Of a stretch of DNA of 64,000 nucleotides, positions 7,010 through 52,360 are shown piece after piece. Source of the DNA: Halorubrum sp. 2020YC2. GTDB taxonomy: Archaea > Halobacteriota > Halobacteria > Halobacteriales > Haloferacaceae. Location of the stretch: contig NZ_CP076019.1 in assembly GCF_018623055.1 (NCBI RefSeq), positions 124,001-188,000 of the forward strand, in the 5' to 3' direction. Position numbers and translations under genes: made by a program. Positions within the stretch are counted from its first letter, which is position 1; each line of letters starts with the position of its first letter. The notes below the pieces were generated by a model. The model had not been told where the DNA came from and made no database searches. It saw only the letters and a program-made list of their open reading frames with translations.

Positions 7010-7082
7010 GCCGAAGTAGCTCAGTTGGTAGAGCGCCTCGCTGTTAACGAGGCGGTCCCAGGTTCGAGTCCTGGCTTCGGCG
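7010..7082 (+). tRNA. tRNA-Asn (GUU)
   Basis: This is a complete cloverleaf. The acceptor stem is GCCGAAG (7010-7016) with CTTCGGC (7075-7081), and the discriminator is G at 7082. The anticodon stem CCTCG/CGAGG encloses loop CTGTTAA with GTT at 7043-7045. The T arm is CCAGG-TTCGAGT-CCTGG. CCA is not encoded and no intron is present. Confidence 0.97.
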
Positions 7083-7150: not shown

Positions 7151-7225
7151 GGGCCCTTAGCTTAGTCCGGTTAAAGCGACTCGCTCATAACGAGTTGATC
7201 GCCGGTTCGAATCCGGCAGGGCCCA
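7151..7225 (+). tRNA. tRNA with CAU anticodon, probably tRNA-Ile2
   Basis: This is a complete cloverleaf. The acceptor stem is GGGCCCT/AGGGCCC with discriminator A at 7225. The anticodon stem ACTCG/CGAGT encloses CAT at 7186-7188, and the T arm is GCCGG-TTCGAAT-CCGGC. A CAU anticodon can be initiator Met, elongator Met or Ile2 (agmatidine-modified in archaea). The intronless gene and the GGGCCC acceptor typical of isoleucine tRNAs favour Ile2, because haloarchaeal elongator Met genes commonly carry an intron. No intron or encoded CCA is seen. Confidence 0.9.
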
Positions 7226-13936: not shown

Positions 13937-14362
13937 TTTAAAAAGCGCGCCTGCGGTGGCGCGTGCCTGCGAGGCCGCTTTGCGGCCGAGCCGCGAGGGA
14001 CGGAAGGTCCCTCTGGAAGCCGGCGCGAAGCGCCGGCGACAGCACGCGCGAGGGAGTCGCGAGCGCTTTTAAGCGCGAGCGACGAGGCCGGGGAGGCGTG
14101 AGGCTGCGGTTGCGGTGCTGTGGGGTGGACTCAAAGGGGCAGCCGCGAGGACGAAGACGCGCGACGTAAGCACTGGAGGGAGCGAGCGCAGCGAGCGGCT
14201 GAAGCGCGCAGCGAGCGCATCGAGTCCTCGCGGCTGGGGCTTTGGCGGTGTTCGCCGTCGATCCACAGTCAGCTATTTATAAGTAAGCGGCCGGAAATTT
14301 GGCGGCGGTAGCTGTCGCTGTGTGGTCGATTACTTATAAACAAGTGGCCGGAGATCCGAAAC
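13937..14362 (+). repeat. dispersed structured non-coding element, copy A
   Basis: The core spans 13953-14250, from GCGGTGG to GGGGCTTTGGCGGTG, with a 3' extension to CCGAAAC at 14356-14362. A TATA-like box lies at 13937-13944. Invariant blocks are GGGGAGGCGTGAGG (14090-14103) and GACTCAAAGGGGCAG. Stem 1 pairs GCGCGTGC (13959-13966) with GCACGCGC (14042-14049), enclosing hairpins. Stem 2 pairs 14140-14152 with 14224-14236, 13 perfect base pairs. The extension has TATTTATAAGTAA at 14273-14285 and an inverse TTACTTATAAA near 14330. Copies B and C share this plan. No protein is encoded. Confidence 0.88.
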
Positions 14363-31700: not shown

Positions 31701-32087
31701 GTTTCGGAGACCGGAGCGACTATTTATAAACGGCTGCCGGCGTTTCAGTCGCAAACACGGCCGAAGTCCCAGCCGGTTACTTATAAATAATTGACCGTAG
31801 ATCGGCGGAGACCACCGCCAAAGCCCCAGCCGCGAGGCGCTACGCGGCACGGGCAGCGAGGGACTCCGTCCCTCTGGCAACCGGGCTTCGCCCGGTGACA
31901 GCCGGCGGCGAAGCCGCCGGCGACTGCCCCTTTGAGTCCCGCCCCGCCCAGCACCGCCCCGCACCTCACGCCTCCCCAGCCTCGTCGCTCGCTTCGCTCG
32001 CGACTCCCTCGCGCGTGCGACTCGCGGCCACCGGTGGCGGCCGCTCGTCGGCACGCGCCACCGCACAGCGTTCATTTATAAGTAATC
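31701..32087 (-). repeat. dispersed structured non-coding element, copy B
   Basis: This copy reads on the minus strand, between two convergent genes. The core runs from GCGGTGG (complement of 32058-32064) to GGGGCTTTGGCGGTG (complement of 31813-31827). TTACTTATAAAT lies just before the 5' end (32074-32087). Stem 1 pairs 32051-32058 with 32011-32018. The 3' module carries three stacked hairpins (31902-31920 with a GAAG/CTTC loop; 31880-31896; about 31857-31878) in place of the long 13-bp stem of copy A. The 3' extension with TTATTTATAAGTAA and CCGAAAC (complement 31701-31707) matches copy A. Confidence 0.87.
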
Positions 32088-52044: not shown

Positions 52045-52360
52045 GTTTACACCAACTGCGGTGGAGTCAGTCGCCGGAGCGAGGCGGAGGCGACTGACGA
52101 GGCTGGGGAGGTGTGAGGTGCTGTGCTGGGCGGTGCGGGGCGGGACTCAAAGGGGCAGTCGCGAGGACGAAGCACGGCGACGGAAGCACCGCAGGAACGA
52201 GCGTAGCGAGTGACGAGGTGCGCAGCGAGCCGCGCGAGTCCTCGCGGCTGGGGCTTTGGAGTGGTTCGCCGTCGATCCGCCAGTAGCGGTTTACAACCGT
52301 TCGACTGGATCTTTGGCGGTGGTCTCGGCGGAGCCGTTAATCACGTAGTCGGCCCGAAAC
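52045..52360 (+). repeat. dispersed structured non-coding element, copy C
   Basis: The core runs from GCGGTGG (52058-52064) to GGGGCTTTGG (52250-52259), with the shared blocks GGGGAGGTGTGAGG and GACTCAAAGGGGCAG. Stem 1 pairs 52066-52075 with 52089-52098, 10 base pairs with a sequence unlike copies A and B. Stem 2 pairs 52156-52168 with 52238-52250. The 3' part carries a second CTTTGGCGGTGG (52311-52322), a partial repeat of the end sequence. The copy sits between divergent genes, and its end overlaps the ncsA promoter region. GTTTAC at 52045 is the TATA-like position. Confidence 0.85.

Follow-up and report, generated by a model that had tools for sequence, protein, structure and literature searches.

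Bacterial REP/BIME and REPIN sequences are high-copy, intergenic, hairpin-forming chromosomal elements, and REPs are linked to RAYT (Y1) transposases. The large structured noncoding RNAs OLE, GOLLD, ROOL and HEARO have elaborate covarying structures and functions that are unclear from their gene neighbours, and they usually occur at low copy number. REPs measure 20–40 bp (PMC3733652). Palindromic noncoding elements of haloarchaea include the IS200/605 omega RNAs and the PATEs, which derive from IS605-type transposon ends and one of which is expressed in Halorubrum lacusprofundi virus HRTV-DL1 (PMC10544981). Haloquadratum walsbyi carries small mobile repeats and MITEs that are short, dispersed and transposase-free; they end in terminal inverted repeats, and their insertions differ between strains (PMC3119063). 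The Methanomicrobiaceae have recurrent G-quadruplex motifs that adjoin a C-rich tract, and the available part of their description contains no covarying hairpin scaffold (PMC8044849).

In this study we analyzed a window of 64,000 nucleotides from Halorubrum sp. 2020YC2 (NZ_CP076019.1, positions 124,001 to 188,000), which holds three copies (A, B and C; Table 1) of an element that shares features with each of these systems. Like REPs it is intergenic, chromosomal, hairpin-forming and present at high copy number, but it is 200–300 nt long, multi-domain and strand-specific, has a class-wide core and showed no linked Y1 gene. We rejected a REP/BIME–RAYT pair, as none of the three Y1 genes in the genome is an intact gene partnered by an adjacent element; one ordinary copy (L123) lies near a Y1 gene carrying stop codons. 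The element is palindromic, noncoding and haloarchaeal, as are PATEs and omega RNAs, but only the twin-hairpin inserts found within some copies resemble IS200/605. Identity with these elements was also rejected, since by coordinates 0 of 15 TnpB genes have a same-strand element immediately 3', and blastn of eight TnpB and three Y1 loci returned no more than short matches or full copies close by. The short, dispersed, transposase-free repeats of H. walsbyi differ in that our element keeps its loci throughout the genus and showed no terminal inverted repeats by eye. With OLE, GOLLD, ROOL and HEARO it shares elaborate covarying structure and a role that its gene neighbors do not reveal, but it reaches about 190 copies per genome. 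Although likewise repeated, G-rich and archaeal, the Methanomicrobiaceae motif, so far as the available part of its description goes (PMC8044849), belongs to another lineage and has another sequence, and identity with it was rejected. No Rfam 15 family matched the element at gathering or relaxed thresholds, the best matches being unrelated and far below gathering; apart from two adjacent tRNA genes, nothing in the window matched Rfam. A search of the open literature, by name or by core sequence, found no description of the element.

Table 1. Features of the three element copies and the tRNA genes in the 64,000-nt window (window coordinates)
Feature	Position	Strand	Remarks
tRNA gene	7010-7082	+	Rfam match
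tRNA gene	7151-7225	+	Rfam match; adjacent to the preceding gene
Copy A	about 13937-14282	+	TATA-like box at 13937; stem 1 from 13955
Copy A, twin-hairpin insert	about 13988-14040		within stem 1
Copy A, stem 2	about 14056-14083	+	
Copy A, core	14128-14145	+	
Copy A, 3' end	14234-14245	+	
Copy B	about 32081-31781	-	TATA-like box at 32076-32081; stem 1 from 32062
Copy B, stem 2	about 32004-31984	-	
Copy B, core	31938-31921	-	
Copy B, twin-hairpin site	31829-31935		
Copy B, 3' end	31829-31818	-	
Copy C	52046-52295	+	
Copy C, degenerate TATA-like box	52046-52051	+	TTTACA, directly upstream
Copy C, 5' end	52058-52065	+	GCGGTGGA; stem 1 deleted, GGTGG fused to AGTC (copy alignment)
Copy C, stem 2 hairpin	52066-52098	+	GTCAGTCGCC-GGAGCGAGGCGGA-GGCGACTGAC (sequence, fold, variants in other copies)
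Copy C, stem 2 arms	52066-52075 / 52089-52098	+	GTCAGTCGCC / GGCGACTGAC
Copy C, invariant purine-rich block	52099-52111	+	GAGGCTGGGGAGG
Copy C, G-tract core	52137-52155	+	GGGGCGGGACTCAAAGGGG; CAAAG (52148-52152) pairs with CTTTG; outer helix covaries
Copy C, stem 3 5' arm	52156-52168	+	CAGTCGCGAGGAC
Copy C, stem 3 distal arm	52169-52237	+	short helices, many only 2 bp, with tandem G-A mismatches between
Copy C, stem 3 3' arm	52238-52250	+	GTCCTCGCGGCTG
Copy C, GGG and closure of outer helix	52251-52258	+	GGG opposite the 5' GGG, then CTTTG
Copy C, 3' flank	52259-52295	+	GAGTGGTTCGCCGTCGATC...TTTACA

The element belongs to a class-wide family of high-copy, chromosomal, noncoding structured elements that is strongly expanded in Halorubrum. 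The core GACTCAAAGGGGCAGYCG had 157 matches at up to three mismatches in the 3.06-Mb chromosome, compared with 5 for a reversed-pattern control, and it was found in all 22 other Halorubrum genomes searched. In the genome of origin and 18 other Halorubrum genomes, 9–191 copies per genome were counted at up to two mismatches. At two mismatches, counts of this core were near background in other genera of the same family (Haloferacaceae); BLAST revealed a related element in two further haloarchaeal families. The class-wide core GGACTGAAAGGGGCNG was present in 193 of 391 haloarchaeal genomes at up to about 73 copies, with nearly all controls at zero, and takes the form GGGNGG(G)ACTGAAAGGGG. The outer closing pair is C-G in Halorubrum and G-C elsewhere, with CAAAG/CTTTG becoming CGAAG/CTTCG, and GGYTGGGGAGG, part of the purine-rich block, is also present in other haloarchaeal families. 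Taken together, we hold with moderate confidence that this class-wide, strand-specific structured family consists of noncoding RNAs homogenized by gene conversion.

Alignment of the copies revealed the order of parts on the plus strand. A TATA-like box is followed by GCGGTGGCGCGTGCC, which opens stem 1, then by GAGGGA, stem 2 and GAGGCTGGGGAGG; the 3' part comprises a variable G-rich stretch ending in GGGNGGGACT, then CAAAG, GGG, stem 3, GGG and CTTTG, and the tail is GGAGGTGTTCGCCGTCGATC with another TTTATAA. The 3' domain consists of a helix (C/G-AAAG:CTTT-G/C), GGG facing GGG and the long stem 3, whose tip is a ladder of short helices with tandem G-A mismatches between them, usually capped by a GNA triloop (GCGTAGC in copy C). 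In other copies the TATA-like box is TTTATAA and usually starts 15–24 nt before the element; such a motif occurred at -24 to -4 in about 61–69% of 168 Halorubrum copies and in about 0–4% further upstream. Haloarchaeal TATA boxes usually lie about 25–30 nt from the transcription start, so that, if the TATA-like box is a promoter, the transcription start would fall within the 5' arm of stem 1, which counts against the RNA reading. About 18–28% of the 5' flanks examined (L001–L120 and L162–L281) have another TATA-like motif, starting near -49, about 32 nt before the first one.

In many copies the tail and flank are repeated in tandem at a spacing of exactly 54 or 57 nt. These arrays join the 3' end of the element (GCGGCTGGGGCTTTGG) to a local flank with TTTATAA, and the units are alike within a locus and different between loci (for example, G000:C1:524400-524705 and 2862161-2862289). 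The counterpart of the copy C 3' flank elsewhere is the start of a 51–57-nt tandem unit with TTTATAA and GCGGCTGGGGCTTTGG. Twin hairpins, perfect and with 3-nt loops, are nested in either orientation in element hairpins of copies A and B and of loci such as L088, L098, L102 and L109. Related twin-hairpin units lie near IS200/605 tnpA/tnpB genes (L121 and L122), and the nested units look like insertions of IS200/605 ends (PATE-like). In copy B a run of inserted hairpins replaces most of stem 3.

The sequence-only reading had proposed that one stem is replaced between the copies, with GCGCGTGC/GCACGCGC in copies A and B and GTCAGTCGCC/GGCGACTGAC in copy C. All of these sequences are present, but the comparison was in the wrong register. 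The aligned copies have two successive 5' hairpins, stem 1 (GGTGGCGCGTGCC...GCACGCGC-GAGGGA) and then stem 2 (from GAGGGA to GAGGCTGGGGAGG); copy C is without stem 1 and its GTCAGTCGCC stem is stem 2, so non-homologous stems had been compared. The stem 2 hairpins of the other two copies do differ, being GTCGCGAGCGCTTTTAAGCGCGAGCGAC in copy A and GTCGCGAGCGAAGCGAGCGAC in copy B. A G-U change had also been described in the 3' stem: position 4 is indeed C in copy A and T in copies B and C, opposite GCGGCTG, although in copy B CAGTCGC sits at the edge of an insert.

The more general claim, that pairing is kept while sequence changes, was borne out strongly by wider alignments rather than by the comparison of A, B and C. 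RNAalifold applied to 50 copies without inserts from the genome of origin gave 30 pairs, in which 98.9% of pair cells can pair, compared with 88.8% in shuffles. Both sides had changed in 15 of the 30 pairs and in 144 cells (32.8 in shuffles), and the covariation score was 0.334, compared with 0.130 for shuffled and at most 0.06 for slid versions. Not one of 500 shuffles was as high on the pairing measures, the number of pair types excepted; as the 50 copies share ancestry and exchange sequence, the shuffles alone give no probability, and the slid control preserves relatedness but uses a structure derived from the same alignment. Covariation extends to the short helices between the G-A mismatches (for example, columns 55-70 and 59-66: GC 36, AU 14). 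Stem 2 occurred as 56 distinct sequences among 79 copies, nearly all of them hairpins and a few odd short ones being parsing failures. Its arms were 75.9% paired with their own partner and 64.7 ± 1.0% with that of another copy. The corresponding values were 98.0 and 85.4 ± 0.7% for stem 3 and, for the class-level stem at 45 other haloarchaeal loci, 91.9 and 61.9 ± 2.1%. Pairing stem 2 from the outside in without gaps gave no information, since it contains purine mismatches and varies in length. These results strongly support selection on base pairing, with compensatory changes exceeding both shuffled and slid controls and the stems pairing in nearly all copies. The outcome that the sequence-only reading had named as its refutation, stems mostly unpaired or paired no more often than in shuffled controls, thus did not occur.

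Across Halorubrum species the copies largely stay at their loci, mostly in one orientation, and their arms appear to be shuffled between copies. Among 96 copies of other Halorubrum species, 46 adjoin genes that flank copies in the genome of origin, although these flanks make up 6.8% of the genome; 28 are syntenic on both sides, 25 of them in the same orientation. As these copies were chosen for holding the element, the data show location and not a rate of absence. At the copy C locus, the core was present in the same orientation in 20 of 30 species, with several more sites diverged or partial and a few clearly empty; in one species (L157) a solo remnant (CTGGGGCTTTGGAG...) is present and the rest of the element absent, marking either a lost element or a unit that is empty. 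Syntenic copies showed no greater likeness than random copies (0.64 and 0.62 for stem 2, 0.69 and 0.69 for stem 3), and stem types and single-base variants were unlinked within the genome, with modules in linkage equilibrium. Because fixed loci show no extra likeness, the arms appear to be shuffled between copies, from which we infer frequent exchange, most simply by ectopic gene conversion. Part of the replaced-but-paired stems described earlier therefore reflects exchange of whole hairpins between copies and not stepwise compensation. A selfish element maintained by gene conversion could yield identical synteny.

Selection on RNA structure had been proposed from the first three copies. That a folded structure is selected stood up; that the molecule is RNA is likely, judging from G-U use, fold scores and independence from neighboring genes. 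In the first 12 bp of stem 3, G-U was found 30 times and A-C 4 times, and in an RNAalifold alignment (A1) G-U was found about 40 times and A-C 8 times; at one position U-G was the most frequent pair. With RNA parameters the plus strand folded better in 80 of 80 copies, by a mean of 25 kcal/mol, and against dinucleotide shuffles copy C gave z scores of -4.5 for RNA and -3.7 for its minus strand. It is possible, though on balance improbable, that the family instead acts as DNA, with the single plus strand, exposed on the lagging strand or in a transcription bubble, folding into GNA-triloop hairpins and a G-quadruplex. Such a fold would stall forks or recruit a nuclease or recombinase; repair from templates in other copies would shuffle the arms and expand the adjacent tandem array, and the element would serve as a chromosome-organization or recombination site or persist selfishly. 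Acceptance of G-U as a normal pair speaks against this, as does the z score of -0.8 for copy C folded as DNA, no better than shuffles, although DNA parameters hold no special bonuses for GNA-type loops. The loops themselves point the other way: 65 of 78 apical triloops are GNA and only 2 loops are GNRA tetraloops, and GNA triloops, typical of stable DNA mini-hairpins, count against RNA. Mini-hairpins of the d(GCGAAGC) type are extraordinarily stable as DNA (PMC10527192). The thorough shuffling of modules, the 54/57-nt arrays beside the element and the two facing GGG tracts likewise suit DNA. GGGNGGG precedes ACTCAAAGGGG in 87 of 94 Halorubrum copies; conservation of the core is partly by construction, because copies were collected with a pattern that includes AAAGGGG. 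The stems, their 5' neighbor GGGN and the 3' partner of the core lie outside that pattern, and their conservation does not stem from it. The G-tract evidence weakens outside Halorubrum, where the second tract is often only GG and GGGNGGG was found in 24 of 45 loci.

A non-autonomous mobile element of the MITE, small mobile repeat or PATE class, mobilized by a transposase in trans with the structure as substrate, would explain the high dispersed copy number, the fact that a minority of species clearly lack the element at orthologous sites and the IS200/605-like twin hairpins inside some copies, and mobile repeats without a transposase abound in haloarchaea (PMC3119063). We consider it unlikely, because the element keeps its loci and orientation throughout the genus, the 15 TnpB genes lack an element directly 3' and inspection of aligned copies by eye revealed neither terminal inverted repeats nor a target duplication that was consistent. 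In addition, unselected copies would lose pairing, whereas nearly all cells pair, and the element is nearly absent from viruses and plasmids. A phage search gave no match, the exact Halorubrum core did not occur in viral contigs, and five plasmid records contained the element; the 28 exact matches of GGACTGAAAGGGGCNG in viral contigs do not, by our estimate, exceed the number expected by chance for a motif of 15 bases in such a collection. A cis-acting leader, attenuator or terminator of neighboring mRNAs is very improbable. The copies are intergenic and often lie within 100–250 nt of genes, which would suit such an element, but their orientation to the flanking genes is mixed. Among 94 copies, with genes called by a simple codon-usage gene caller, none overlapped a gene; 31 were in convergent, 48 in tandem (both senses) and 14 in divergent arrangement, with one undetermined. 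The upstream gene was co-directional in only 50 cases and opposite in 43, indicating that element orientation is independent of it.

One strand of each copy folds into hairpins set on the invariant purine-rich blocks. If the family acts as RNA, as we favor, that RNA would be made at many loci. The invariant blocks and G-tracts would bind a common protein partner, and the G-tracts may form a quadruplex, favored by high intracellular potassium. Ectopic gene conversion in polyploid cells would homogenize the family, so that selection would need only paired arms of the right shape. Since element orientation follows no neighboring gene, a trans-acting scaffold or a protein-sequestering RNA would be the most likely role, although so many copies would be unusual for a noncoding RNA gene, which counts against RNA. 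Tentatively, we propose a class-wide RNA family of up to about 190 loci per genome in which a quadruplex-type G-tract core lies between two helices with G-A ladder arms, cassettes are exchanged between fixed loci, and the copies may share a structural or protein-binding job in a molar-potassium cytoplasm.

In the richest genomes the element ranks among the most abundant structured sequences. So clean a separation of evolutionary speeds is rare: loci and pairing are retained, and the sequence is shuffled. The mechanism by which dispersed copies evolve in concert in polyploid archaea thereby becomes open to testing. Minimal elements of one other haloarchaeal genus (L322; G325, G431 and G399) occur as head-to-head pairs separated by about 33 nt, and a CCAATC-like motif often lies in between. 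The copies of the element also supply a natural library, with hundreds of variants that preserve the structure.
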